Origin: Acidimicrobiales bacterium
GTDB lineage: Bacteria > Actinomycetota > Acidimicrobiia > Acidimicrobiales > UBA8592
NCBI GenBank assembly: GCA_022425805.1
Contig: JAKMEQ010000041.1
Coordinates: forward strand, 1-32,844
Reading direction: 5' to 3'
DNA: 32,844 nucleotides
Positions 3,398 through 24,108 of the stretch are shown here, in pieces. Numbering within the stretch: position 1 is the first letter of the stretch; each line of letters opens with the position of its first letter. A program made the translations under genes and the position numbers. The notes beneath the pieces are model-generated. The model had not been told where the DNA came from, did no database searches, and worked only from the letters and a program-made list of their open reading frames with translations.

Positions 3398-3861
3398 TTC
3401 GCCTCCAAAACAGTGTCACCAATTTGGATACGGTCATTACATTTCAGAATCTGTGGACTTTCTATCTTCTTCCCATTTATAAATGTTCCATTTGTTGAGC
3501 TTAAGTCTTCAAGGTATTGGGAATCGTCCTGAAGAAAGATGCGTGCATGAAGGTGTGAAGCAAATGAATCACTTATCGTAATGACACATTCTTCTGCTCT
3601 TCCAATAAATATCTCTTCTTCGATTGGGTATTCGATTCCTAGGAGGTTAGCTGGTTCAAGGGTCTGAAGAAGAGTGACTTGTTGTGAATGCTGTCTATCT
3701 CTTACAGCATTCTTTGGTATTTTTGGATTTTTGGGCTTTCGGAGTTGGAATAAGGTTATCAAGATAACGCAAATGAAAAAAAAGTAGAGAACTATTAGAA
3801 AAAGAATTTTGAGTAGGTCTAAGAATTGTTCTGACACGGTATGTTGCCGGTTTCTGTTCAA
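3394..3861 (-). CDS. fhaB: FHA-domain membrane protein FhaB (FipA-like)
   Basis: 155 residues, the same length as the mycobacterial FhaB/FipA family. A membrane helix spans about residues 17-39, followed by a basic stretch and a cytoplasmic FHA phosphothreonine-binding domain from about residue 80 to the end. The FHA core is recognisable as IGRAEEC, then SDSFASHLHARI and SSTNGTFINGKKI, which supply the expected Gly-Arg, Ser-His and Asn-Gly positions. In Mycobacterium this protein links PknA/PknB signalling to division. It lies directly upstream of pstP with a 4-nt overlap. The gap of about 44 bp to the preceding crotonase-type gene leaves room for a separate promoter, but none is obvious. Confidence 0.9.
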   Translation of the reverse strand: MNRNRQHTVSEQFLDLLKILFLIVLYFFFICVILITLFQLRKPKNPKIPKNAVRDRQHSQQVTLLQTLEPANLLGIEYPIEEEIFIGRAEECVITISDSFASHLHARIFLQDDSQYLEDLSSTNGTFINGKKIESPQILKCNDRIQIGDTVLEAK

Positions 3862-3905
3862 ATTTAACCGCTCATTTTTGAGAGGTGAGGATTATATTTT
3901 CTGGT

Positions 3906-4685
3906 TTATCGTCCTTGCCATTTTGGGTTGCGTTTTTCTTTAAACGCTTGTCGCCCTTCCTTTGCATCACGAGTTTGGTTTGCAACGATTCGGATTGTTT
4001 CTCCAAATCTTACTGCTTCTACCCACCCCATATCTTGAGTTCGGGTCGCAACTTCCTTCGTTGCCCGCGAAGCAAGTGGGGCAGATTTACATAAGCGTTG
4101 AGCTAGGTCTTTTGCTTTAGATATAAGTTCTTCATGCGGGCAGATATCCCAGACAAGTCCAATTTCTTTCGCTCGTTCAGCTGTAACGACTTCTCCTAGT
4201 AGGAGAAGCTCCATCGCATGAGACCAAGTAAGTTGTTGAGGAAGCCGTATTGCACCAACAATTGTCGGCGTGCCAATGCTTACTTCAGGGTAAGCAAAAG
4301 TCGCTCGGTCACTTGCGATCACGAAGTCACAAAAAGTAACTGCTGTTAGCCCATACCCAATACATGGACCGTTGACAGCAGCGATCACTGGCTTGTAAAG
4401 TTCCATGCCGCTCTCAAAGCTATTTATTGTCGGTTTTTCCCAAAATGTACCGGGAAAGGTCCCGGCGCTTCCGTTTGAATCTTTTAGGTCAGCTCCGGCA
4501 CAAAATGTTTTTCCGACTCCGGTAAGTATCGCTACCCAAGCACTTTCATCTTCGAGAAATTTTTTCCAAGCGCTGTTCAGCCCTTCACGCATCGGGCCGT
4601 TAATCGCATTGTGCTGATCGGGACGGTTGTAACTGATCGTAACGATATTCCCCTCTTGTTCATAGGTAACTGGAAGATCCATCAT
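3906..4685 (-). CDS. Enoyl-CoA hydratase/isomerase (crotonase) family protein
   Basis: About 259 residues from the chosen start. Crotonase-fold enzyme acting on an acyl-CoA thioester. The first oxyanion-hole segment is GKTFCAGADLKD and the second region is GPCIGYGLTAVTFCDF. The second acid of classical hydratases is present in YPEVSIG, but the position of the first catalytic Glu (before the CD pair) appears to be Thr, so hydratase activity is doubtful and another crotonase-fold reaction is possible. The start was set at ATG 4685, preceded by GAAAGG at good spacing, 13 bp after the fhaA stop. A longer reading from 4751 would overlap the fhaA coding end and extend the N-terminus beyond the family. 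A fatty-acid-type gene inside an fha/pstP operon is unusual. Confidence 0.85.
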   Translation of the reverse strand: MMDLPVTYEQEGNIVTISYNRPDQHNAINGPMREGLNSAWKKFLEDESAWVAILTGVGKTFCAGADLKDSNGSAGTFPGTFWEKPTINSFESGMELYKPVIAAVNGPCIGYGLTAVTFCDFVIASDRATFAYPEVSIGTPTIVGAIRLPQQLTWSHAMELLLLGEVVTAERAKEIGLVWDICPHEELISKAKDLAQRLCKSAPLASRATKEVATRTQDMGWVEAVRFGETIRIVANQTRDAKEGRQAFKEKRNPKWQGR

Positions 4686-4698
4686 GAGCCTTTCATCA

Positions 4699-5358
4699 CT
4701 AGCTGGCTTCGAATCTGATTCGGAATTTTCCCAATTCGATTCTGTCACCATTCAAAAGTATATGTTCAGAGATACGGTCGTCATTGACTACAGTGCCGTT
4801 TGTAGAACCGAGATCTTTTAGTATGTAGTTGTTGCCATCAAGACGGATCTCCGCTTGAGAGCGACTTATGCTTGAATCATCGAGAACAACTGTGGAATCT
4901 TGAAGACGACCTATGGTTGTTACTGTTTCCTCGAGCGTAACCCGTTGCCCGTCTGGCATAACTAGCGCTCCTGGAGGTCGGCCCGTTTGAGTCTCTTTAT
5001 ATTGAGTATCAATTCTAAGGTTTCCACTTCGTAAATTGTCGCTAACTACAAGCGAGACAGTAACTGGGCCAAGGAACCCGTATGCCTCTTTTGAACAATA
5101 GTCGCGTATGGTCTCTTCAAGTTCACGACGGATTGATTCAATAGCGTTGGCGAAATGATCAAAATCGTTTTGGGATAATAGAATTTCGAAGTTGTTGGGG
5201 GCTAGATCCTCTCCGTTGACAGCGATACTTCTATTACGTTCTATCTCTCGTACAAGCCGCCGACCTATTTCAACAGGCTTAACAGAGCTACTGAATATTC
5301 TCGCAAAAGTTCCTTCAACTATTTTTTCTAACTTGTTTTCTATTTTCTTGATTCCCAC
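4699..5358 (-). CDS. fhaA: FhaA: DUF3662 domain plus C-terminal FHA domain
   Basis: 219 residues. The N-terminal 120 residues match the DUF3662/FhaA_N type (start GIKKIENKLEKIVEG, then an EIGRRLVREIE segment). The C-terminal FHA domain spans about residues 145-219, with TIGRLQDST, SSISRSQAEIRL and LGSTNGTVVNDDR. In mycobacteria FhaA binds phosphorylated partners of PknB, including MviN, to control peptidoglycan synthesis. The protein is much shorter than mycobacterial FhaA because the long low-complexity linker between the two domains is nearly absent. It lies 25 bp downstream of the FG-GAP/amidase gene on the same strand, so the two may share a transcript. Confidence 0.93.
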   Translation of the reverse strand: MGIKKIENKLEKIVEGTFARIFSSSVKPVEIGRRLVREIERNRSIAVNGEDLAPNNFEILLSQNDFDHFANAIESIRRELEETIRDYCSKEAYGFLGPVTVSLVVSDNLRSGNLRIDTQYKETQTGRPPGALVMPDGQRVTLEETVTTIGRLQDSTVVLDDSSISRSQAEIRLDGNNYILKDLGSTNGTVVNDDRISEHILLNGDRIELGKFRIRFEAS

Positions 5359-12153: not shown

Positions 12154-12273
12154 CAACTGAAATGGAAAAGTGAAGTTTCTCTTCAGCAATAAATTGAATA
12201 TTTGGTGAATTGTAATTTCTTACCATCAATTCGTTATCTCTAGGCTTTAAGTTATCCAAAGAAAACAAATGGG

Positions 12274-14352
12274 ATGAAAATTTTTCGATATAGGCCAGAA
12301 ATTGATGGGGTACGGGCCATAGCGGTCCTATCCGTGATCATTTACCATTTAAATGCTGATTGGCTACCTGGCGGTTATCTAGGTGTAGACATCTTCTTTG
12401 TGCTTAGCGGATACCTTATAACAACTCTGCTCGTGCTGGAGTATGACAAAGACCAGAGAATAGATTTAGCTGGGTTCTGGGCCAGAAGAATTCGTCGTTT
12501 GATGCCAGCGTTGTTCATTGTTCTTTCAGCTATTGCACTGTACTTTGCTTTATCTTCTTCAAATTTTACCCGTATAGGCCTGCGTTCAGATCTCTTCAGT
12601 GCATTATTTTATGTAGCGAATTGGAATTTCATAGCTGAAGGGCAATCATATTTCACAGGTTTCGAGTCGGCTTCTTATGTGCGTCATACATGGTCTCTAG
12701 CGATAGAAGAACAATTTTATTTGATCTGGCCTTTGACGGTCTATGGGATCTTTCGACTTCAGAAACAAAAATATATTCCTATTCTTCTTTCAGTAGTTAT
12801 TGGTACCTCGGTTTTTCTTATGGGGTTCCTCTATACGTCGAGTGACCCTTCCAGAGCGTATTTTGGGACAGATACACGGGTTCACCAAATTCTTTTGGGA
12901 GTGACACTGGCGTTTCTTTTAACAGGACGGATGAGAGAGAAAACTTTAAGAATTGGTTACCGGCTTATGCCTGTGGCGGTCGCAGGAATAATTCTTTGCT
13001 TTATTTTTCTCAAAGACCAAGCAAGCTTTTATTACCAAGGAGGTTCATTTCTTGTAGCCCTAAGCACAGTGGTTTTGATTGCAGGGCTCGAAGGAGGCCA
13101 TCCAGTTATAAAACTGCTCCAAACCAAACTGCTGGTTTCCATAGGATTGATTTCATATGGTCTGTACCTGTGGCATTGGCCTGTGATTCAGCTTGTTGGA
13201 AAAGAAATTGGTCCTTCAGCACACGCACCGAACGCAATCATCGCTGTAGCGATCACTTTCACTATTTCGACTATCTCCTACCGTTATGTAGAAAAACCCG
13301 TACGACTTATGAAAAAACTGTTCAAATGGAATATCTCACCAAGAATTATTTTAGTATCGCTACCAGTTGTGAGCGGACTTGTTCTAATTATTATTTTGGT
13401 TTCGACGATGGGGACAGAAAAACCAGAATGGGCTTCAGCGGGACAATTAACCCAGATACCCACACCCGAAAGTATTGAGGTACCCACGCCCGAAAGTATT
13501 GGGTCTTTGATTGACGAACCGTCAACGGACACGAGTCGTGATGATTCACAAGTTCGTAACGATAGTGAAGAGGAGGAAAATAGTCTTAAGTCAGAAAACC
13601 CTGTCGTCAATCCCTCAGCTGACAATGTGGAAGAAAAACCTGAACTTCTCACCGTTGGGATAGTCGGAGATTCAGTAGCAGTTTCTTTACTGCCAGGGTT
13701 AAGAACGGCAGCTCTAGACGAAGGGTTTAAACTAATTGAAGCGGCGATTCCAGCGTGCCCAATAGGGTATAAACCGTTATATAGCGATGATGGAGTGATA
13801 TCTCCATATGCAGATAATTGTTTATCTAATGTTCAAGCCCAACATGAGATTCTCATTAATGACGAGAATCCGGACATAATTATTTGGCATGATCTGCAGT
13901 CTGTTTTTGCTAGACGTAATAATAATGATGCTCTTTTATCTACGGGATCTTCTGAGTGGGAAAGTGCCCTTCATGAAGAATGGACAACGGTACTTAGTAG
14001 ATTCCAAACAACCGGAGCAGAAATATTTCTTCTTCTTCCTCCTTTACGAAGCACCGTTAGTTTAGAAACATGTTTACGGTATACGAGATGTGTTGATATT
14101 CAATTTCAGGACGAATCGATTCGCAATGCAACATTGACATGGTGGGAAACTGTTAGAGATTCTCCAAATGTTTACACCGTTGAACTTGATTCATACTTAT
14201 GCCCCTTAGGAAACCCATGTCCAGAAAAGATAAATGGAGTAGCTGTAAGAGTTGGTGGAAATGATCAAACTCACTTCACAGAAGACGGTGCCGAAATAGT
14301 TGCCGTTCTCCTAATGGAAATGATCAGCGAGAAATCTTCCACATTTAATTAG
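12274..14352 (+). CDS. Acyltransferase-3 (OafA/YrhL type) with C-terminal SGNH domain
   Basis: 692 residues. A polytopic membrane acyltransferase (about residues 1-380) carrying the family start RPEIDGVRAIAVLSVIIYH with catalytic His25 and IFFVLSGYLIT. A periplasmic SGNH esterase/transferase domain follows from about residue 460: GDS at 465-467 and the D664-x-x-H667 pair near the C-terminus complete the catalytic set. Between them is a low-complexity linker that includes a near-perfect tandem PTPESI repeat. Such proteins O-acetylate cell-surface polysaccharide or peptidoglycan: the membrane part passes the acyl group across and the SGNH part attaches it. The ATG at 12274 has no strong Shine-Dalgarno. 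Confidence 0.93.
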   Translation: MKIFRYRPEIDGVRAIAVLSVIIYHLNADWLPGGYLGVDIFFVLSGYLITTLLVLEYDKDQRIDLAGFWARRIRRLMPALFIVLSAIALYFALSSSNFTRIGLRSDLFSALFYVANWNFIAEGQSYFTGFESASYVRHTWSLAIEEQFYLIWPLTVYGIFRLQKQKYIPILLSVVIGTSVFLMGFLYTSSDPSRAYFGTDTRVHQILLGVTLAFLLTGRMREKTLRIGYRLMPVAVAGIILCFIFLKDQASFYYQGGSFLVALSTVVLIAGLEGGHPVIKLLQTKLLVSIGLISYGLYLWHWPVIQLVGKEIGPSAHAPNAIIAVAITFTISTISYRYVEKPVRLMKKLFKWNISPRIILVSLPVVSGLVLIIILVSTMGTEKPEWASAGQLTQIPTPESIEVPTPESIGSLIDEPSTDTSRDDSQVRNDSEEEENSLKSENPVVNPSADNVEEKPELLTVGIVGDSVAVSLLPGLRTAALDEGFKLIEAAIPACPIGYKPLYSDDGVISPYADNCLSNVQAQHEILINDENPDIIIWHDLQSVFARRNNNDALLSTGSSEWESALHEEWTTVLSRFQTTGAEIFLLLPPLRSTVSLETCLRYTRCVDIQFQDESIRNATLTWWETVRDSPNVYTVELDSYLCPLGNPCPEKINGVAVRVGGNDQTHFTEDGAEIVAVLLMEMISEKSSTFN

Positions 14353-14448
14353 GGAGTAGATTTGCTAAAAAAAATTTAATATTTTGAGTGTTTGAGCTGA
14401 ATCTGATTACTAAGAGTTTAAATATTTCTAGCTTTAAGTGATTAGGTG

Positions 14449-14482: not shown

Positions 14483-14556
14483 GCGCTCGTAGCTCAATTG
14501 GATAGAGCATCTGATTACGGATCAGAAGGTTGGGGGTTCGAGTCCCTCCGAGCGCG
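14483..14556 (+). tRNA. tRNA-Arg (anticodon ACG)
   Basis: The acceptor GCGCTCG pairs with CGAGCGC, discriminator G. The anticodon stem TCTGA/TCAGA encloses loop TTACGGA, giving anticodon ACG. The T-arm has loop TTCGAGT. CCA is not encoded. Positions 14515-14558, from the first base of the anticodon loop to 2 bp past the 3' end, are copied at 16482-16525 with two mismatches, so this tRNA is a likely integration target. Confidence 0.97.
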
Positions 14557-14620
14557 CTAGACATACTCGCAGGTCAAAGCCCCCACCGACTAGAACACCT
14601 CGACGCGCTTGATTGTTTAG

Positions 14621-14716
14621 ACAGCCACGCAAGTGGAACACGGTGACACAGTCGTGTACTAAAATAGCTGGTAACAACACGTATTTACCCAACTGGAGAC
14701 CCCATGGATTACTTAC
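14621..14716 (+). repeat. Dispersed repeat R1 (96 bp)
   Basis: Direct-repeat partner of 16380-16485. It contains ACACG, a 10-nt spacer and CGTGT (inverted arms), then TAAAATAGCTGGTAACAACA, a Shine-Dalgarno-like CTGGAGA, and ATGGATTACTTAC. The ATG at 14704 opens a 19-codon reading frame starting MDYL and ending at 14763. It abuts the 3' end of the pentapeptide-repeat gene, whose stop lies at 14717. Confidence 0.85.
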
Positions 14717-16288
14717 TTAATAACCATCTGGGAATAGGGTCCCTTGAAGATTCGTTCCGGTGAGATCAGCGCCGGTGAGATCAGCGCCGGTGAGATCAGC
14801 GCCGGTGAGATCAGCGCCGGTGAGATCAGCGCCGGTGAGATCAGCGTTTGAAAAATCAACCGATACCAGATCCGACCCTAAGGACGCTTCCGTGAGATCC
14901 GCTCCGGAAAAATTAGCCCCAGCCATATACCCGCCGCCGCAGCAGTCGTTGGGCCACGGGAAAATGACGTTACTTAAATTAGCCCCGGACAGGTCCGCCC
15001 CAACGAAACTAGTTGTGTGTTCCGAGAAATCTACGTTACTAAAATCAGCTCCAGATAGATTCGCTCCAACAAAATCAGCATGCAATAGGTCAAGATCATT
15101 GAACTTTGCTGACTCTAATTCAGCAAAGTTCAAATAGGCGTAGCTCAAATCAACTCCAGTGAAATCCGTATTAGGAAGACACTCCCAACGTGGGATTTGT
15201 TCATCCGTGAATCCTTTATCGCATCCCGCAGCTTTCAGGGTCATTTCCCAAGTTTGTTCCTCAAACGAACTCGTAGAATTTTCACACTCGGCTTCTGGGG
15301 GCGTTGTAATTTCAGCCAAAGGGCCGATATATGCTGTTGCTCCCTGATCAATAAGTGCACAAGTGAAAGTAGCGTTATCAAATTGTGCATCACCAAGCAC
15401 TAGATCACGGAGGTACGACTCTGTGAAGTCAGACCCAGAGAAATCGGCTCCTGAGAGATTAGAAAAACGTATTCCTGCATACAAAAATTGAGCATCCGGA
15501 AACTCAGAGCCAGCAAAATTCACACTGTATAGAGCTGCACTATAAAAATCAGCGTCGGAGATAGTAGCCCCAATCATTTTGACCCCTGAAAAGTTTGATA
15601 ATCCGGCATTCATGCCGTCGATTTTTGCTTCTGAAAGATCTGCAAGAAATAATTTCGCTCCGGAAAAGTCGATATTTTGGCCTGTGATTCTGGTGAAATC
15701 AGTTGTTACTAGTCTCGCCCAGTAAAAGTCCGCATCAACAATGTTCGCCCCTTCGAAAGATGCTCCCGTAAGGTCACCGCCTCTAAACCAAGGGGTAGAA
15801 ATATTAGATTCCCGAAATGTGGTTTGGGACAAATTCCCATCAAACACTGGTTTGTAGAGAGTTGAGTAATCAAAGTTTGCTTGAGATAGAGGAGATTGAA
15901 GAAATTCAACCATTTCAAGATCAGAGTATCTGAAATCTACTCCACTGAAATCAACATTTCTGAATGTTGAGTCCTTTATAACTGAGTAACTAAGGTCCGC
16001 TCCGGAAAGGTCGGTGCCTTCGGGGCATTCCCATGAATACTCACTAGCAGAAACTTTATCGCAGCCGACTGCGAGTAGTTTTTCTTCCCAAGGTTCGGGA
16101 ATAGGTGTTGGGGTTGGGTCAGGTTCAGGTGTTGAATCAGGGGTTGGATCAGGTTCAGGTGTTGAAGTCGGATCAGGTGTTGATATTGGAGTCGTCGTTT
16201 CTAAATTTGTTTGAGCGTCCGTGCTCTCTTGTTCGCTGCTGCAGCTAGCTAGAGTAAGTAACAGAAGGAGATAGAAGAGTTTTTTCAT
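14717..16288 (-). CDS. Pentapeptide-repeat lipoprotein with two solenoid modules
   Basis: About 523 residues from ATG 16288, chosen because the lipoprotein signal peptide begins there (MKKLFYLLLLLTLASC, lipid Cys16); a start 6 codons earlier adds nothing useful. After a Thr/Pro/Asp-rich stalk (about residues 25-65) come two modules. Each opens with a W-E-x-x-L-x-A-x-G-C-D-K segment and a WEC segment, followed by many A(D/N)LXX pentapeptide repeats forming a right-handed beta-helix. The final 40 residues are nearly identical ADLTG units. Function unknown; pentapeptide solenoids can mimic DNA or form binding surfaces, and an exported lipoprotein form suggests an extracellular surface role. It sits between repeats R1 and R2. 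Confidence 0.9.
   Translation of the reverse strand: MKKLFYLLLLLTLASCSSEQESTDAQTNLETTTPISTPDPTSTPEPDPTPDSTPEPDPTPTPIPEPWEEKLLAVGCDKVSASEYSWECPEGTDLSGADLSYSVIKDSTFRNVDFSGVDFRYSDLEMVEFLQSPLSQANFDYSTLYKPVFDGNLSQTTFRESNISTPWFRGGDLTGASFEGANIVDADFYWARLVTTDFTRITGQNIDFSGAKLFLADLSEAKIDGMNAGLSNFSGVKMIGATISDADFYSAALYSVNFAGSEFPDAQFLYAGIRFSNLSGADFSGSDFTESYLRDLVLGDAQFDNATFTCALIDQGATAYIGPLAEITTPPEAECENSTSSFEEQTWEMTLKAAGCDKGFTDEQIPRWECLPNTDFTGVDLSYAYLNFAELESAKFNDLDLLHADFVGANLSGADFSNVDFSEHTTSFVGADLSGANLSNVIFPWPNDCCGGGYMAGANFSGADLTEASLGSDLVSVDFSNADLTGADLTGADLTGADLTGADLTGADLTGTNLQGTLFPDGY
14761..14846. repeat. Tandem 15-bp repeat in the 3' end of the pentapeptide gene
   Basis: Five perfect copies of TGAGATCAGCGCCGG followed by an 11-bp partial copy. 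Each copy encodes one ADLTG pentapeptide on the minus strand, so copy-number change keeps the frame and alters solenoid length. Confidence 0.95.
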
Positions 16289-16379
16289 TGGTAGTAGTGT
16301 ATGCAAAGAACGCTACCCTATTCCAGGAAATCAATGATGCTATTTTCATTATTCATAATGCTGATAGATAGCCACGCGA

Positions 16380-16485
16380 ACAGCCACGCAGGTGGAACAC
16401 GGTGACACACCCTGACACACCCGTGTACTAAAATAGCTGGTAACAACACATATTTACCCAACTGGAGAACCCATGGATTACTTAC
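16380..16485 (+). repeat. Dispersed repeat R2 (106 bp)
   Basis: Same unit and orientation as 14621-14716, longer by a 10-bp tandem duplication (TGACACACCC twice) between the inverted arms. It ends in the same ATGGATTACTTAC, which here runs straight into the 3' fragment of tRNA-Arg. The ATG at 16473 opens a 30-codon frame (MDYLRIRRL...) to a TAG at 16563. It lies upstream of the pentapeptide gene start. Confidence 0.85.
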
Positions 16486-16525
16486 GGATCAGAAGGTTGA
16501 GGGTTCGAGTCCCACCGAGCGCGCT
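16482..16525 (+). repeat. Partial tRNA-Arg copy (att-like direct repeat)
   Basis: 44 nt matching 14515-14558 of tRNA-Arg(ACG) at 42 positions; mismatches are at 16500 (A for G) and 16514 (A for T). The copy begins at the anticodon loop and ends 2 bp after the tRNA 3' end, the usual extent of a tyrosine-recombinase att core. The T-stem would carry an A-A mismatch, so it is not a functional tRNA half. Confidence 0.85.
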
Positions 16526-16532
16526 TCACTCT

Positions 16533-17423
16533 TTAGTTAGAACTACTAACGTCAGATCGAGCTAGGATCAAATTTATTGTCGGAATCCCATTTGGTTTGA
16601 CCGTTTGAGGAATTATCCCTCTTGCGAGTATGTCCCATCTAGGAAACTTCTCTTCAACATTGTGTTCATTGAACTCCCTAAGATGACTTCCAAGCATTCC
16701 GTCATATTCAGCGAGTTCAAACTCCCAAGGGACATTGACCAAAAAAATACCATCTGGTGTAAGAATACGTTCCACCTCTTTCAAGGCTGTCTCCAAAGAT
16801 AGGACTACGTTCAGGGTTTCAGAGCAGACGACAATATCTTGGGAATCCGAGTCGATAGATAAGTTTTCAATATTTTCGTTTAGGACCTTCCAACCTTTAC
16901 TCGCCATGAACGTACAGTAGTCCGGTGCTAAATCAACCAAAATAGGATTTTCAATATTGAGGTGATCGAAGAATGTTACCGTCCCGCATCCAATCTCGAC
17001 ACCGTTGACAAAAGTTCTGTTAGGGAGAGTGTCATTAAGTAGCTGTCGCAGTGCGGGGAAGATAAACATCTCGGTGGCAATATGCCATACATCTATTTTC
17101 TCATCCATGACATACTTTTCATGGGCGACTCCATCTTCAAGCCACTTGAGGTTGCGCTGGGCATACTCTCGTGTCCAGTCTTCATATTGATCCCGTATTT
17201 CTAGGTTGCTCATTTCAGTCACATTGCCAACTCTGGTCGATTCCGTCGCACCGATCGCGTCTACACTCACGTTGCCAACTCTCGTCAAGTCAATATCAAC
17301 AGTATCGATCGCGGAAGTAGAGGTACGGCGGAAAGTACGTGAATATAATCTAGAAATGTTGTTAGTGATATCTTGTATTCGATTTTTTAACCGCCGAATA
17401 TTTGATTTACTTCTGTTAGACAT
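16533..17423 (-). CDS. Class I SAM-dependent methyltransferase
   Basis: 296 residues. The central Rossmann methyltransferase domain carries motif I as VEIGCGTVTFF (residues 142-152), then LVDLAPDY as the acidic-loop strand and DIVVCSETLNVV as the post-II region: a Methyltransf_11-type core. The N-terminal 110 residues are basic, then helical, with two copies of TRVGNV (47-52 and 63-68). ATG 17423 was chosen because a frame extending to 17909 would run antisense through the neighbouring phospholipase gene. The ATG lies inside the loop of a perfect inverted repeat. The stop is 8 bp from the partial tRNA-Arg copy. Substrate unknown. Confidence 0.8.
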   Translation of the reverse strand: MSNRSKSNIRRLKNRIQDITNNISRLYSRTFRRTSTSAIDTVDIDLTRVGNVSVDAIGATESTRVGNVTEMSNLEIRDQYEDWTREYAQRNLKWLEDGVAHEKYVMDEKIDVWHIATEMFIFPALRQLLNDTLPNRTFVNGVEIGCGTVTFFDHLNIENPILVDLAPDYCTFMASKGWKVLNENIENLSIDSDSQDIVVCSETLNVVLSLETALKEVERILTPDGIFLVNVPWEFELAEYDGMLGSHLREFNEHNVEEKFPRWDILARGIIPQTVKPNGIPTINLILARSDVSSSN

Positions 17424-17448
17424 GAATATAGATTCTAACAGAAGTAAA
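17406..17448. promoter_or_regulatory. Perfect 15-bp inverted repeat between divergent genes
   Basis: Arms TTTACTTCTGTTAGA (17406-17420) and TCTAACAGAAGTAAA (17434-17448) with a 13-nt spacer that contains the methyltransferase ATG. As DNA it could be an operator shared by the two divergent genes. As RNA in the methyltransferase transcript it would place the start codon in a hairpin loop. Confidence 0.75.
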
Positions 17449-17466
17449 AGGTTATAACTTCTATAT

Positions 17467-18810
17467 ATGGCGATACCAATTCCAGACTCAGCGTTCTTTC
17501 CACCAAGAGAAAGAAATGCTATAACTCCTCTAGTTGATGGCGGCATTGCGTTTGATCGCATCGCTTCAACAATTGAATCAGCGACTTCTTCTCTATGGGT
17601 ATGTGTTGCTTTCCTCGAACAAGAAGCGACTTTTCCTGAAGGGCGGGGAACTTTCTTTGATCTGCTTGATGGTGCTGCATCTCGAGGGCTTGACGTCCGG
17701 GCACTCATATGGCATCCGGAAGGCCCTTCGGCTGATGCTGAGGACACGTTATGTGCAGATGCGAAAACTATAGAAATACTATCCGGCAGAGACACACAAT
17801 GGCAGGCGCGATGGGATGCCGTTGGAATGAACTGCCAGCACCAAAAAGTTTGGATTATTGACGCTGGGACACCAAATGAAATCGCTTTTGTTGGTGGGAT
17901 CAACATCACTCAAGGGTCAATGACGAACCCAGGTCATGAAGAACCAACGTTTGGTAAACGTAACGAAAGATACTCAAACATTCATGATGTTCATTGCCAA
18001 ATACAAGGACCGATCACCAGCGACGTTCACCAAAATTTTGTTATGCGTTGGAACCATGCATCAGAACAAAACAAAGAGAATGGAAGCTGGCCAAAGACCG
18101 GAACCGAGAACTTGTCAAAGGTAGACAGAATTTCTGCTGAAGTCGGAAACGTAAAAGCTCAGATAACTCGAAGTCTTCTTCCTGACCTGTATTCCGAAAT
18201 GCCCAAAGGCGAAAATAGTGTACGACAGCAGTACCTCGAAGCTTTCGAAGCAGCCGAAGAATACGTTTACATTGAAAATCAGATCTTGTTAAGCAGAGCC
18301 TGTTTAGACGTCATTCACAGAAGACTTGAAAAAGGGATACCTGTGCTCGCTCTTGTACCCGCAGACCCTATGTCAGAATTGTCAGCTGCCAGATCACACC
18401 CTGGTATTGCAGCCGCATATGAGGCATTAGCAAAATGCGGCGAATATCCGAACTTTTGCCTAGCAGCTCCTGCCGCACTTCGGACATGGGGCTATGAAGA
18501 AATCTATGTTCACTCAAAAACAGCAATAATCGATGATGCATGGGCAACAATAGGTTCAACCAATCTGGTCTTCTCTTCATTTCAAGGCGATACGGAGATG
18601 AACGTTTCCTTCTGGGATAACCAAACGGCACGAGCATTTCGGACACAACTCTTTGATGAACATGGAGGGTTCTCATCCGCTAAATATGGCGGACGCGAAG
18701 CTATTGAGGAGCTAATAGAAATAGCTCGCCGAAACACCTATAAACGAGACGAGAATCAGCCTCTTCAAGGCTTTATCTATGCTATTGAACCAAGTGATTG
18801 GGCAAAATAA
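17467..18810 (+). CDS. Phospholipase D-like protein with two HKD motifs
   Basis: 447 residues. Two H-x-K-x4-D catalytic motifs: H125/K127/D132 (HQKVWIID, followed by FVGGINIT) and H349/K351/D356 (HSKTAIID, followed by TIGSTNLVFSS). Both halves of the active site are intact, so phosphodiesterase or phosphatidyl-transfer activity is expected (phospholipase D or cardiolipin synthase type). No membrane helix is seen, which disfavours a standard cardiolipin synthase. The ATG at 17467 is 18 nt after an AAAAGG, so the ribosome-binding site is weak or distant. Divergent from the methyltransferase across 43 bp containing half of the inverted repeat, with repeat R3 just after its stop. Confidence 0.9.
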   Translation: MAIPIPDSAFFPPRERNAITPLVDGGIAFDRIASTIESATSSLWVCVAFLEQEATFPEGRGTFFDLLDGAASRGLDVRALIWHPEGPSADAEDTLCADAKTIEILSGRDTQWQARWDAVGMNCQHQKVWIIDAGTPNEIAFVGGINITQGSMTNPGHEEPTFGKRNERYSNIHDVHCQIQGPITSDVHQNFVMRWNHASEQNKENGSWPKTGTENLSKVDRISAEVGNVKAQITRSLLPDLYSEMPKGENSVRQQYLEAFEAAEEYVYIENQILLSRACLDVIHRRLEKGIPVLALVPADPMSELSAARSHPGIAAAYEALAKCGEYPNFCLAAPAALRTWGYEEIYVHSKTAIIDDAWATIGSTNLVFSSFQGDTEMNVSFWDNQTARAFRTQLFDEHGGFSSAKYGGREAIEELIEIARRNTYKRDENQPLQGFIYAIEPSDWAK

Positions 18811-18844
18811 ATGCTCAAAGATAGATGCTGCGAAAGAACATTCT

Positions 18845-18888
18845 GTTACACGCTGACATAGTCGTGTAGGTAAATAGCTGGTAGAAAC
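18845..18888 (+). repeat. Dispersed repeat R3 (degenerate copy)
   Basis: ACACGCTGACATAGTCGTGT followed by AGGTAAATAGCTGGTAGAAAC matches the core and the AAATAGCTGGTA part of R1 and R2. The downstream ATGGATTACTTAC portion is missing. Lies between the phospholipase-like gene and the small membrane gene. Confidence 0.7.
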
Positions 18889-18967
18889 TGGATCTACCGG
18901 TAGGTAGAAAGACTTTCCTGTCATTTGAGAATGGTTCCTCGCCCCAAATGCCACCTAAGGTTTATAC

Positions 18968-19207
18968 ATGCTCAAAATGCCGATCTTCCCGTTACCGATA
19001 GCGTTACCTCCGCTTCTTATATTTCTTATCATCGAGCTCTCAGGGTTGGCCAATGTCCCAACCGTGTTATACCTGGCACTCGTGTTCGTTCTCCCTTACG
19101 TTATTCGCTCGCAGGTGATCCGTTTATTGCAGAAATACGACTCAGCGTTCCTCAAAAAGGTGGCGTTGTTCCTCGGAGGTAAATTCGAAGAAGAGGGCAG
19201 ATTTTAA
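18968..19207 (+). CDS. Small membrane protein, function unknown
   Basis: 79 residues. Two closely spaced hydrophobic segments (about 8-26 and 30-47) are followed by a basic, amphipathic C-terminal region (QVIRLLQKYDSAFLKKV) and an acidic end. The ATG at 18968 has AAGG at about 8 nt spacing. A competing frame at 18925-19182 lacks membrane character and is rejected. The size and two-helix hairpin resemble holin-like or toxin-like peptides, but no family motif is visible, so no function is assigned. Repeats R3 and R4 sit immediately before and after it. Confidence 0.6.
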   Translation: MLKMPIFPLPIALPPLLIFLIIELSGLANVPTVLYLALVFVLPYVIRSQVIRLLQKYDSAFLKKVALFLGGKFEEEGRF

Positions 19208-19214
19208 CCAACCT

Positions 19215-19243
19215 GCTTGGTGGAACACGATGCCATAGTCGTG
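19215..19243 (+). repeat. Dispersed repeat R4 (partial copy)
   Basis: GGTGGAACACGATGCCATAG followed by TCGTGG corresponds to the 5' half of R1 (GTGGAACACGGTGACACAG, TCGTGT). Only this half is present, 8 bp after the stop of the small membrane gene. Confidence 0.6.
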
Positions 19244-19312
19244 GCTGCTTTCATGTGTTAGTTAGCAATTATTTTCGGTTGTTTCAGACGCATGCACAAT
19301 TGGTTAATCAAG

Positions 19313-19774
19313 TCAGAAATTGAATGGCCTGGTCACCATAGGCTCTACATCTGGTCGTTCTAGCGTGGCTCCAAATAAAGCTGTTTCTGCTAAAGCGGTA
19401 TCGAAAAACTCATACATTTCAGCGATAAGTCCATTTCTGATCGTAAATATCATCGCATATGTTTGTGGATAAGGGTTCCCGTCTACCGAATAGGCATCTG
19501 CTTTCATAAGCCCAACGACTCTGTCGTCATCTGCGCACATAATTTCATATTTCGTCGGTAATTGTGTGCGTTCCATGTCAAGACGTTCAAAAAAGTAGGT
19601 AGACAAGACATCAAACAAAGCAGACTTACCTTCCCAACACCCAGAAATCGCCATATCCCCACATACGTTGTGTAGAACATCATCAGCAAAAAGTGACTGA
19701 TACTTTTCCACGTCAGAATCTGTGAGCGCCTGAAAATAGGACTCAACTATTTGAATATTTTCTTCTCTACCCAT
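19313..19774 (-). CDS. SnoaL-like / NTF2-superfamily protein
   Basis: 153 residues. Cone-shaped alpha+beta fold of the SnoaL/ketosteroid-isomerase group. The N-terminal helix ENIQIVESYFQALTDSDVEK and the FADDVLHNVCG strand are typical, as is the later YAMIFTIRNGLIAEMYEFFD. Members act as isomerases, cyclases or dehydratases, or just bind small molecules; which applies here is unknown. AAGGA lies 6 nt before the ATG. It may be co-transcribed with the PhyH-type gene 160 bp upstream on the same strand. Confidence 0.8.
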   Translation of the reverse strand: MGREENIQIVESYFQALTDSDVEKYQSLFADDVLHNVCGDMAISGCWEGKSALFDVLSTYFFERLDMERTQLPTKYEIMCADDDRVVGLMKADAYSVDGNPYPQTYAMIFTIRNGLIAEMYEFFDTALAETALFGATLERPDVEPMVTRPFNF

Positions 19775-19934
19775 AATTTCCTTTATTTTTGCGGTTAAAA
19801 ATATTTTTATTGGATCACTTGTGCTTAGATTGTTAAGCGATTATTACCCTAAGCGGGGTTTGGTTTGTTGGCAATTATTCTGTTTACTTCACGCTTTTTA
19901 ACTGTGTGAGGTAAAAGAAAATGGTAATAAAGGC

Positions 19935-20834
19935 TTACGAGCGTTTCTTTGAACCTACGAGTGGGAAAATATCTCCGAACTCGGATAGGCGCTGACCTGT
20001 TTGAGGATTGAAGAAGGCAAGCGCTTTTGGATCAGGTATGACCTGCCCAAAGCGTTTAACGTAACGGACATTTGGCCCTGCGTACATGATTGCATGCGCC
20101 CGACGTGGGTAAGACAATACGGTTTCATTACACGCAGCATGGATGATGTCTCCATGAAAGAGAATTACGTCTCCTGGTTCGTAATCCCATCCGATAATGT
20201 CAAATGATTTCCTATTATTTTCAATGTCGGGGATTTCAGGGAGAGAGGTATCAAGAAGTGCGTCGTTGTATGCGAAATCCTTTCCCGAACGTTCATACAT
20301 CCCATATTCTCGGGCTTTCTCCAAATTCAGCTTATGGACTTCCTCCGCCATCTCCGGATCCCTCCCGACTAGGGGCCGGTATGTGACATTCCAGTTGTGC
20401 GAACCACGCACCACTTCAAGACTTGCTTCTCTGGGAACAGGGTCTGGCGAAATCCATGCTCTAATTAAGTCATCTCCTTCAACGTTGTAATAGCACGTGT
20501 CCTGATGCCAAGCAGTGGCCATTAATTCCCCTGCGGGTTTAACGAACATCTGATCCATGTAAAACCGGACTGGTGCGCCAAGCATGGCTGCAACTAAATC
20601 ACCCGTAGGAGATTCACAAATGAATTTCTGAAGGTTCTCTGACCTTGAGGCTGGAAACTGATCTACTCGAATCTGCATTTCTTGCATGACCAGTTCACTT
20701 GACATGCCATCTGGTTGGTTGAAACATTCATCTAAGCCAACGGCGAGAAGCTGAAGCCATTCTTTATCCAGAGCATTCTTAATCTGGATAGCACCGTCGC
20801 GATGGAATGCCTCTATCTCTTCTTCACTTAACAT
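19935..20834 (-). CDS. Phytanoyl-CoA dioxygenase (PhyH) family protein
   Basis: 299 residues. Fe(II)/2-oxoglutarate-dependent oxygenase with the double-stranded beta-helix metal triad H110 and D112 (WHQDT) and H232 (FHGDIIHAACN); R245 (YPRRAH) is the likely 2-oxoglutarate-binding arginine. The N-terminal EEIEAFHRDGAIQI is typical for the family. The substrate is not inferable: bacterial members hydroxylate lipids, ectoine, phosphonates or natural products. The ATG is preceded by an unusual G8 tract on the coding strand. Confidence 0.92.
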   Translation of the reverse strand: MLSEEEIEAFHRDGAIQIKNALDKEWLQLLAVGLDECFNQPDGMSSELVMQEMQIRVDQFPASRSENLQKFICESPTGDLVAAMLGAPVRFYMDQMFVKPAGELMATAWHQDTCYYNVEGDDLIRAWISPDPVPREASLEVVRGSHNWNVTYRPLVGRDPEMAEEVHKLNLEKAREYGMYERSGKDFAYNDALLDTSLPEIPDIENNRKSFDIIGWDYEPGDVILFHGDIIHAACNETVLSYPRRAHAIMYAGPNVRYVKRFGQVIPDPKALAFFNPQTGQRLSEFGDIFPLVGSKKRS

Positions 20835-21008
20835 TGAATCTAGAACCCCCCCCGTCCTGTCGATGCTAGAAAAATATTTTCAGGTATTTAGCCCTCTACC
20901 TATATGCGTTTATTTATAACACAGTAAGTATCTCTCAAAAAAAATCTTCGATAAATACTAGAGAAGCTCGTCTTTCCCCTGCGCTACATGTCAAACCACA
21001 GACCCTAG

Positions 21009-22247
21009 TCAAGCTTGTGGAAGTATTTCCATTTGCTGATCTAAGGGGAGTTTAAGGAACTCGTTAAACTCGGTTACGAAATCCTCAACTGTCTGCCCAT
21101 ATGTGTGCATGAAGGCTCCTTCAAAGCCCATTGCTTCACGGTTAGGGTAGAAAACTTCGAGCAATACATCGCTACCGTACGTGTGCGATAGATAGGCGTG
21201 AGCCCATGCCCCTCCGGCATAGGCAGCGCCATACGAGTCGCATTTCGCCCCATAGCCAGTATCTGATAAATCCCCGCCACAACTCTTAAAAGATTCTTTC
21301 GCGGCGAATAGGGCGTTTTGCATTTCTTGATTGAAATCAAAAGAGCCCTGTCCGGCAATCTCACTTGATGTGAAAGCATCACTAGAACGTAAACGGGCCG
21401 TAGCGACCTGTGCCATGAATTCAGCACCACCCTCTGTGAACCAACGTGGTTTCATACCCTCATCACGTTCATACCAATCTTGAGTAAGTAAAGCAGAATG
21501 TTGAATCGTATGAAAATATTCATGGAATACAGTTTTCTGTTCTCCTGCAGCAGACTGTTGGCCCTCGAGGTCGTAAGAATTGTCAAAACCCCAAGGAACA
21601 CTGGACGTGTATTTATGGTAATTGAAATGTCTTCCACCGTTATGGCCCATAGTACTTGCGGCACTTTTCTCTTCTAACCATTGTGCCCCTAGCTCGCGGT
21701 AAGAATTCATGCCATGGTCACCAAATGTTCCCTCATGTTTAATGCATTCATTGAAATCATCATCATTTCTTTCTGAACGGCGGTTGCAAAAAACGTCTAC
21801 CATCGAATCTCCAGCTGCCTCATCAGTTCCCATGATCCAATACTCGACTGGGCCATAGTTACCCCACTCCTTTGCAGCGAGCAGGAAAGCTTCGGTAGCA
21901 GCTTTACAGAGTCGAATATCAAGATCTGAAGCACAAAAGAATTCGGGCGAAAAAGAAATTTGTTGTCCATATAGGTCGGGGGCCCCCGTAACGACAGGCA
22001 TCTCTTCACCAATACAGTAGATATGGCCGCCCTCTTTGACACAACTCGCTGTAAGCGCCACTGGACCCAACGTTGGTGTTGGAGTTTCAGTTGGTATCTC
22101 AGTTGATGTTGGTGGTTCAGCCGACGCCGGTGGTGCAACTTCGGAAGACGCACCACAAGCAGAGCTAATGAAAATGACAAAGAACAGAAAAAGTAAGGTA
22201 ATTATTTTCCGAGCAATTTGAGGTACGTTTTTTAGTGTCTGTTCCAC
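21009..22247 (-). CDS. HExxH zinc-metallopeptidase-like lipoprotein
   Basis: 412 residues with a GTG start at 22247. A signal peptide with lipobox ends at Cys31 (FISSAC), followed by a Pro/Thr/Glu-rich stalk (about residues 37-62). The ectodomain contains HEYFH at 242-246 and, 26 residues after it, the FTEGGAEF segment with E272: a gluzincin-like zinc site (two His plus downstream Glu) with catalytic E243. It is therefore predicted to be an anchored extracytoplasmic zinc peptidase. Several Cys in the ectodomain may form disulfides. It shares the HExxH...E-G-x-A layout with the lipoprotein at 31434-32366, though the overall sequences differ. Confidence 0.8.
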   Translation of the reverse strand: MEQTLKNVPQIARKIITLLFLFFVIFISSACGASSEVAPPASAEPPTSTEIPTETPTPTLGPVALTASCVKEGGHIYCIGEEMPVVTGAPDLYGQQISFSPEFFCASDLDIRLCKAATEAFLLAAKEWGNYGPVEYWIMGTDEAAGDSMVDVFCNRRSERNDDDFNECIKHEGTFGDHGMNSYRELGAQWLEEKSAASTMGHNGGRHFNYHKYTSSVPWGFDNSYDLEGQQSAAGEQKTVFHEYFHTIQHSALLTQDWYERDEGMKPRWFTEGGAEFMAQVATARLRSSDAFTSSEIAGQGSFDFNQEMQNALFAAKESFKSCGGDLSDTGYGAKCDSYGAAYAGGAWAHAYLSHTYGSDVLLEVFYPNREAMGFEGAFMHTYGQTVEDFVTEFNEFLKLPLDQQMEILPQA

Positions 22248-22565
22248 TCTCTAGTAACTTTCTTATTAGGACCTGAAGATAGACTATTGTAAAGCCCTAT
22301 TATCGTTTCGTAGTTATTAAGACTTGTCGGCTAAAAGCTTTTCAAAAAGTTCGGAATAAAGAGATATTGGGGGTTTGGAGTTCAATTTGTAGGACTCGTG
22401 TTCAGGTTTAGTGAGATTGCTAAAGGCCATTACGTGAACAAAATATGGGGGAAGCTTCCCGTGTTTCTCCCTTTGCGCTTTCTGGTAGCATGTGCCGTCA
22501 TTGTGAAATAATTATACCCCTCTTTATAAGGTGGTCTATTTGGTTGCATCAATAGCGGACTGGAA
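22248..22565. other. Gene-free stretch of about 318 bp
   Basis: No convincing gene. It contains a 12-bp palindrome GGGAAGCTTCCC at 22449-22460. The region should hold the promoter of the metallopeptidase gene, but no clear -35/-10 pair stands out. Confidence 0.5.
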
Positions 22566-22787
22566 TTAATTGGCTCTTCTTTGGTTCGGTCTTTGAGGAG
22601 AAACATGAGGTTTCGGTCGTTTTTTAGGTGGTTTCCAGCGAACCTTTAAATATTTCTGATAGGAAACCCCATTGTTGAGTTTGTAGTTTTGAAATGCTTT
22701 GTATTGCTTCTGATAAGTTTTCTGACATGAGGAGCACCATGTCTTAGTCCAGCAGGGTTCTTCGCCACATTTCTTACACAGTTGCAT
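22566..22787 (-). CDS. Small Cys-rich, basic protein (possible zinc ribbon)
   Basis: 73 residues. CxxC at 4-7, a further Cys at 12, and CxxC at 18-21 look like a zinc-binding knuckle. The rest is strongly basic and Tyr/Lys/Pro-rich (KYLKVRWKPPKKRPKPH), suggesting nucleic-acid contact. No family is recognised. The ribosome-binding site is poor (GGAG only 1 nt from the ATG), so the start is uncertain, but the regular Cys spacing supports a real protein. Downstream of the lar operon on the same strand. Confidence 0.5.
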   Translation of the reverse strand: MQLCKKCGEEPCWTKTWCSSCQKTYQKQYKAFQNYKLNNGVSYQKYLKVRWKPPKKRPKPHVSPQRPNQRRAN

Positions 22788-22902
22788 GCTCCAAAGTTAC
22801 GAAGCAGATATGACACATCTTGGGTGCTATTTGGTTGATAACAAACAGCGGGAAAGGAGAATGTCCTGTATCCCGTCTTGCTGTTTCCTTACTGTTCCGA
22901 AT

Positions 22903-22926
22903 AAGCCGATTTTTTTATTTCGGCTT
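22903..22926 (-). terminator. Hairpin just after the lar operon
   Basis: AAGCCGA and TCGGCTT arms (7 bp) separated by a 10-nt loop, directly after the larC stop. There is an A-run in the loop on the operon strand but no T-tract after the stem, so it is a weak intrinsic terminator candidate. Confidence 0.4.
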
Positions 22927-24108
22927 TCAGGTTTGTTCTTTCTGTGCCCATATGAGAGTAGCTTCTTCCGCTAGTTGCCTAAGAGGCAGTTGCGTTTTGT
23001 TTGCAACACGAACAAGATCATTGTGTTCAGGTTTCGCACTGTATGGACCTACTTTTATTGAAACCTTTTCTCCATACATATGTATTTGCTCCAAAGAGCG
23101 AGGTAGTTCTGTTTTTTCTACTGGAATAATTCTGCATCCAAGTGACCCTGTTGCGGAAAAAAGTAGGGCTTTGAGTGTTTCTACTTTTTCATCGCTGCAA
23201 AGAATGCGTATTTCCTGTCCGGGTCTTCCCTTTTTCATAATTATTGGAACAATCCAAGCATCTTCAGCTCCTGCCGTTAGTAAGGATTCAATCGTATGAG
23301 CTATGACCTCAGGGGTTACATCATCAACGTTCGTTTCGAGTAGAAATTTGAGCTGTGATGTAGTTGTTGCTTCTGACTGATTTAGGAGAATGATTGAAAC
23401 GACATTTGGGTAGCTTGCCGGATTTCTTGTTCCTGCCCCCCGTGAAGATGACCCTATTTGCCCTGCGTTAATCCCTCCCCAACGAGTCGCAAGACTTACG
23501 AGTAAGGCTGCTCCCGTTGGGGTACAGGTTTCTTTATCTATGTTTACGTTTGTGACTGGGCACCCTTGCAGGATTTCTACAGTCGCGGGAGCGGGCAGAG
23601 GTAACGTGCCGTGGCTTGCTTCAACCGATCCATAGCCTAAACCAACAGGCCCAATAGTGATCTCATTAAGCATCCCATAGTCTTCTTCGAGTGCAGAAAG
23701 GAGCAGCCATACCCCTACGACATCAATGATGGCGTCAACGGCGCCAACTTCATGGAAATGCACTTGATTGATATCAACCCCATGCTGCTTCGCTTCGGCT
23801 TGCCCTAATAGACGAAACGTTTCGCGTGCCCCGTTAGCAGTATTTATCGGAAGGTCAGCTTCGCTCAGCAATAGGTCTATTTCACTCCATTGTCTTCCAT
23901 GTGTAGCTTCGTCATATCGGACCTGAGCTTCTGTTGCAGTAAGGCTGCATCGGAGAGTTTTCTTTAACTCAATATCCCATTTCCCAAGGTTTAAACCATC
24001 CAGAGGTTCCAAAGCTTGATAAGGGTTTTCGACCAATTCGGAAAAAGCCCCTAAAAGCATGTTCCCGGAAGCCCCAAATGAAGGATCTATCCATAAAGAA
24101 AAGCTCAT
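22927..24108 (-). CDS. larC: LarC, nickel insertion protein for the nickel-pincer nucleotide cofactor
   Basis: 393 residues. CTP-dependent nickel insertase of the LarB-LarE-LarC pathway, which builds the Ni-pincer cofactor of lactate racemase and related LarA-family enzymes. The N-terminal DPSFGASGNMLLGAF matches the family start (usually GASGDM). HFHEVGAVDAIIDVVG and TPTGAALL are further hallmarks, and the length is usual. In Lactiplantibacillus plantarum larC is split into larC1/larC2 joined by frameshifting; here it is one continuous frame. It starts 2 bp after the larB stop, third in the larE-larB-larC order. Confidence 0.93.
   Translation of the reverse strand: MSFSLWIDPSFGASGNMLLGAFSELVENPYQALEPLDGLNLGKWDIELKKTLRCSLTATEAQVRYDEATHGRQWSEIDLLLSEADLPINTANGARETFRLLGQAEAKQHGVDINQVHFHEVGAVDAIIDVVGVWLLLSALEEDYGMLNEITIGPVGLGYGSVEASHGTLPLPAPATVEILQGCPVTNVNIDKETCTPTGAALLVSLATRWGGINAGQIGSSSRGAGTRNPASYPNVVSIILLNQSEATTTSQLKFLLETNVDDVTPEVIAHTIESLLTAGAEDAWIVPIIMKKGRPGQEIRILCSDEKVETLKALLFSATGSLGCRIIPVEKTELPRSLEQIHMYGEKVSIKVGPYSAKPEHNDLVRVANKTQLPLRQLAEEATLIWAQKEQT

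Follow-up and report, generated by a model that had tools for sequence, protein, structure and literature searches.

In Islander, tRNA islands are defined by a regenerated tRNA gene together with a displaced tRNA fragment, and an integrase gene inside the island is required (PMC4383910). Among actinobacterial integrative elements (AICEs), tandem integrations, tRNA-Arg genes with several attachment sites, and remnants have been described (PMC3218068). Elements that depend on others for their movement, including integrase-less cassette arrays, have also been reviewed (PMC11389934). Here we analyzed a 32,844-nt stretch of Acidimicrobiales DNA (hereafter the window), which is contig C77 of a 1.57-Mb, 74% complete MAG (G000), and found an element of this kind behind its tRNA-Arg(ACG) gene. 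Like Islander islands, the element has a regenerated tRNA and a displaced 3' fragment at its ends, belongs to the anticodon-loop crossover class, and agrees with them in orientation and 3'-side placement. However, it lacks the integrase that these islands need inside, and would therefore be left unlisted by such a search. The likeness to AICEs covers the tRNA 3' end as the target, tandem integration, more than one attL at a tRNA-Arg gene, and remnants lacking functions, whereas the replication and FtsK-like translocation genes by which AICEs are recognized were found neither in the window element, which holds one cargo gene only, nor in the available part of an integrase-bearing element at the same tRNA in genome G002. 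Tycheposons and hitchers, described from streamlined aquatic bacteria, are likewise cargo islands that have tRNA borders and a tyrosine recombinase, and for which helper dependence is discussed (PMC10872708, PMC11389934); tycheposons differ in being described as 4–200 kb with a recombinase, and are likened to the window element by description only. The window element is a well-documented case of the ordinary tRNA genomic-island kind and not a new mechanism.

The segment at 14483–16525 is very probably an immobilized, non-autonomous remnant of a tRNA-Arg(ACG) integrative genomic island of the tyrosine-integrase type, with older accreted DNA behind it (Table 1). The original prediction of a small integrated element without an integrase is borne out: the site is seen empty in some relatives and filled in another, and a related element with an integrase was found as well. 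As it had also noted, the 3' part of the tRNA gene recurs about 2 kb away with two mismatches: positions 14515–14558 and 16482–16525 are identical at 42 of 44 positions, and shuffled sequence gave zero matches to the 44-nt block. The block does begin at the first base of the anticodon loop, which is tRNA position 32; given that this position is C or T among congeners, its true start is position 32 or 33. It ends past the tRNA as predicted, but by 1 nt from the 3' base assigned by ARAGORN (14557) rather than by 2 bp. Both mismatches fall in the T-stem pair 50–64, which is G-U in the tRNA and A-A in the displaced copy. The displaced fragment has the same orientation as the intact gene and lies on its 3' side, as in tRNA islands. 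The 3' half of the intact gene, from the anticodon loop onward, is presumably the attL core and derived from the element. Elsewhere in the same MAG, a further 37-nt tRNA-Arg 3' fragment is located between two ordinary genes, without a right arm (L030; G000:C59:8461-8501).

Table 1. Features of the tRNA-Arg(ACG) locus, in window coordinates
Feature	Position	Strand	Basis or remark
tRNA-Arg(ACG), integration target	14483–14557	+	ARAGORN; comparison with congeners
Left arm, ending at the first candidate arm-type motif ACAGCCACGCAA	14558–14632	+	59/75 identity to the G002 left arm
Right-arm copy 1, joined to the left arm at their common motif, with a 12-nt overlap	14621–14716	+	95.8% to copy 2
Pentapeptide-repeat lipoprotein gene (probable product), cargo	14717–16306	-	Pfam; 529 aa from TTG, ATG at ~16288
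Right-arm copy 2, complete	16344–16485	+	Candidate tandem arm-type motif AGCCACGCGAACAGCCACG at 16370–16388
attR core, displaced 3' fragment of tRNA-Arg(ACG)	16482–16525	+	Match to 14515–14558
Further DNA absent from the empty site	16526–22926		larC ends ~10 bp past the tRNA in G006/G001, at 22927 in the window
Third right-arm copy, decayed and partial	18848–18883	+	Just downstream of the phospholipase D-like gene

Comparison within the genus revealed the site in two states. In G006 and G001, tRNA-Ser(TGA), tRNA-Ser(GCT) and tRNA-Arg(ACG) are followed directly by the end of larC, and no second copy of the tRNA-Arg fragment is present at the site; the single intact tRNA-Arg that the original prediction expected of an empty site is thus seen in both. 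At the far junction on a G007 contig, the right arm is followed by a damaged tRNA-Arg fragment, the empty-site flank and larC, and this flank is 86%–94% identical to that of the empty site per 100 bp. These comparisons support the view that G006/G001 and G007 represent the states before and after integration at tRNA-Arg(ACG). In G005 and G009, the contigs break off at most about 30 bp from the tRNA; this matches what is expected of a polymorphic population, and is only suggestive. The same tRNA cluster differs at another point: tRNA-Ser(GCT) and tRNA-Arg(ACG) are only about 75–90 bp apart in G001, G002, G005, G006 and G009, whereas an acyltransferase-SGNH gene (12274–14352) lies between them in the window (12155–14448), indicating a second insertion at the cluster. 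As to the 44-nt copy, it could also have arisen, along with the repeat next to it, from a segmental duplication or a local chromosomal rearrangement with no integration at all. Fragments of tRNA-Arg do occur away from any tRNA gene (G000:C59, G014 and G016), but this explanation is hardly credible in view of the empty and filled sites with matching flank, the boundary lying exactly at the anticodon loop, and the presence at this tRNA of an element that has an integrase and a homologous left arm.

That element, found in G002, is the integrase-carrying relative at the same site for which the original prediction had proposed to search. From the tRNA onward, it consists of a left arm homologous to that of the window, a gene for a tyrosine integrase of 404 aa that has a SAM-like domain at its N terminus (3574–4788 in G002; PF00589, E 1.7e-17), a gene for a 158-aa protein, and the HsdR and HsdS genes, within which element the contig ends. 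The closest integrases in the order, those of G101 (50%) and G144 (52%, partial), are located directly behind tRNA-Arg(ACG) and tRNA-Ser(GCT). No integrase ORF was found at 14558–16525 of the window, and the window element is thus classed as a remnant, not as a complete island. Its own MAG encodes two tyrosine recombinases, both of the XerC/XerD type; a G002-like integrase was not found there at E 1e-40, a search by which a helper integrase could be missed at 74% completeness. In IMG/VR, no relative of the G002 integrase was confirmed and the right-arm junction pattern had no match, and phage records yielded distant integrases only (<30% among the best matches). In another family of the order, both integrases of L039 (G024:C32) closely follow tRNA-Arg(ACG) or a fragment of it, and an additional tRNA-Arg fragment lies at G024:C32:83156; G024 thus carries tandem islands at the same tRNA. 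An integrase also lies behind a tRNA-Arg fragment in G170.

The arms tie the window element to its relatives. The left-arm match to G002 compares with at most 35/75 for random placements on the same contig. The 2-kb insert had been described as holding a pentapeptide lipoprotein and two copies of a dispersed repeat (14621–14716 and 16380–16485); the contents stand, and the repeat is now identified as the right arm of the element. In G004 and G007, the same right arm of 100–180 bp is followed by the tRNA-Arg fragment, with 87% identity to G004 over window 16344–16525 and 84% to G007 over window 16365–16521, and copy 2 in the window ends exactly at the core. An integron-like cassette array, in which gene and repeat alternate, was considered and rejected, as the repeat adjoins the tRNA fragment in G004 and G007 and holds the tandem motif of integrase left arms. 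Apart from a 10-nt gap, the two right-arm copies in the window are 95.8% identical to each other, as against 86%–88% to other species, which indicates that they parted within the window lineage. Their divergence is about that between the tRNA and its fragment.

Sequence analysis further revealed that the right arm contains AGCCACG twice, 12 bp apart, a pair also present in the left arms of G002 and G144 and nearly so in that of G101. Among the 16 genus genomes scanned, the exact pattern AGCCACG-N5-AGCCACG occurs once each in G000, G002, G004 and G007, always beside the tRNA-Arg core, and is absent from the other 12; the reversed control gave zero in the genus. Outside the genus, an order-wide scan for the tandem AGCCACG pattern gave no enrichment over the reversed control, and its use is thus confined to the genus and the closest integrase elements. 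A tandem arrangement as such is more widespread: leaving the window out, 12 of 14 other tRNA-Arg(ACG) or fragment flanks tested across the order have an exact tandem 8-mer, 11–12 bp apart and 47–75 nt past the tRNA; by simple counting, some 0.6% of random stretches as long as these would be expected to have one. The 8-mers differ between lineages, and the two empty sites have none. In the window, the tandem motif is complete in the right arm and represented by a single unit in the left. Judged from their sequence and position, the AGCCACG repeats are candidate arm-type sites of the integrase. In a genome of another family, a like arm motif plus the start of the right arm was found (L050; G260:C41:19562-19600; 87% over 39 nt), with no tRNA-Arg fragment detected there.

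The cargo gene probably encodes a pentapeptide-repeat lipoprotein; pentapeptide-repeat proteins have varied roles. Its homologues reside in G017 (90% at the amino-acid level), G012 (81%) and G003 (66%). Nucleotide homology to the G017 gene (92%, window 14710–16346) abuts the homology to the G004 right arm (16344–16525), forming sharp seams. The G017 homologue extends into a C-terminal beta-propeller that the window gene lacks; the G012 homologue matches that of G017 over its entire length, and the G003 homologue is naturally short. The original prediction would have counted the separate occurrence of gene and tRNA fragment against integration, and this is literally what G017, G012 and G003 display, which have the gene but no fragment on the stretch read. 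The integration reading nevertheless stands, since this distribution marks the pentapeptide gene as captured cargo and leaves the empty-site evidence unaffected. A recent transfer of the gene from a G017-like donor was considered and set aside as undatable: two core stretches were tried without a match in G017, and for G012 the identity of the gene (82%) is too close to that of the core (77%).

The order of the parts enables us to propose a putative history. From the tRNA, the left arm runs up to the first AGCCACG, and right-arm copy 1 continues from the second AGCCACG without a break. At a 6-nt match (TTACTT), copy 1 passes into the pentapeptide gene, which runs from its end to its start with 40 bp upstream; the complete copy 2 and the tRNA fragment follow. 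Initially, a circular element would have been inserted by an integrase, through its attP core, at the anticodon loop of the tRNA. The incoming element would restore the 3' half of the tRNA, and the original one would come to lie at the distal end of the insert as the 44-nt fragment. The G002 element, with its left arm, integrase and type I restriction genes, represents the autonomous relative. Afterwards, the integrase region was lost in the window lineage, probably by deletion between AGCCACG repeats, as suggested by the left arm being joined to the right arm exactly at the common AGCCACG. The second right arm would then stem either from a tandem duplication of gene plus right arm, or from the adjacent integration of two sibling elements and a later deletion; the order of the deletions is one that we infer. 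This model is assembled from fragmented draft genomes whose joins are known from assemblies alone: the left arm (G002) and the right arm (G004 and G007) come from different species and broken contigs, and an integrase-bearing version with this right arm is not seen from end to end in any one genome of the genus.

Beyond the attR core, the locus has further layers. The original prediction had the element extend from 14483 to 16525; the attR copy is indeed located there, but the insert relative to the empty site continues for about 6.4 kb, to about 22926. Its additional genes encode a methyltransferase, a phospholipase D-like protein, a SnoaL-like protein, PhyH and others, and this DNA is probably an older accretion. 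The third right-arm match within it (E 1.9e-5 over the whole genome; 0/200 shuffles) is taken to indicate that an older element once occupied this site. Sequences resembling a decayed tRNA fragment, sought after this copy and near larC, were indistinguishable from shuffles. In G014 and G016, a phospholipase D-like homologue is followed by a tRNA-Arg fragment at the syntenic place, with no tRNA gene nearby (L036:8887-8931 and L087:2780-2797). The third arm copy and these fragments fit an older accretion at, or movement from, this tRNA-Arg hotspot. Within the same part of the window, a short right-arm match behind a 79-aa ORF (GGTGGAACACG; 19219–19235) is perhaps a fourth decayed copy.

These layers bear on how the second right arm arose. 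As a variant of the remnant reading, two sibling elements may have integrated in turn at the same tRNA, with deletions leaving the present segment and older elements lying beyond 16525. The close resemblance of the two right-arm copies, the decayed third copy at 18848, the several fragments that G024 has behind this tRNA or fragments of it, and the integrase behind a fragment in G170 all accord with such an accretion. On the other hand, no tRNA fragment is left after copy 1 or copy 3, and a duplication within one element accounts for the order equally well; we thus regard serial integration as plausible, though somewhat short of probable.

The original prediction had offered two options, a remnant or an element mobilized in trans; the fusion of the left arm to a right arm favors the former. 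According to the second option, the 2-kb unit of attL, attR and arm sites would be a still-mobile satellite (hitcher), moved by a G002-type integrase with the pentapeptide gene as its cargo. Both cores and a complete right arm are indeed retained, the cargo is 92% identical in DNA to a gene of another species, and the genus has an integrase of matching site in G002. However, the fused left arm has only one arm motif, the copy that would become the tRNA upon excision carries the two T-stem mismatches, the same unit of left arm, gene and right arm was not found in any other genome searched, and no helper integrase was found in the 74% complete MAG; this option therefore appears improbable. A broader version, in which marine Acidimicrobiales would harbor a family of small integrase-less units, each a single cargo gene between conserved arms moved via tRNA-Arg(ACG) sites by integrases in trans, as the tRNA-site counterpart of integrase-less cassette arrays, is very unlikely. 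The remnant, in our preferred reading, is probably stuck in place, given that a search of the genome gave no suitable integrase and that excision would yield a tRNA with a broken T-stem pair. As the excised unit would leave a tRNA with the A-A mismatch of the fragment, selection should oppose excision.

In summary, the site in its empty state, its filled junction and a relative that has the integrase together show how an island of marine Acidimicrobiales has decayed at one tRNA-Arg hotspot. The analysis also provides candidate arm-type sites for a group of integrases to which no close characterized relative was found. Searches that require an integrase would miss such remnants. The tRNA-Arg hotspot gathers defence genes, with type I restriction genes in G002 and, close to the right end in G007, an Mrr-like endonuclease.
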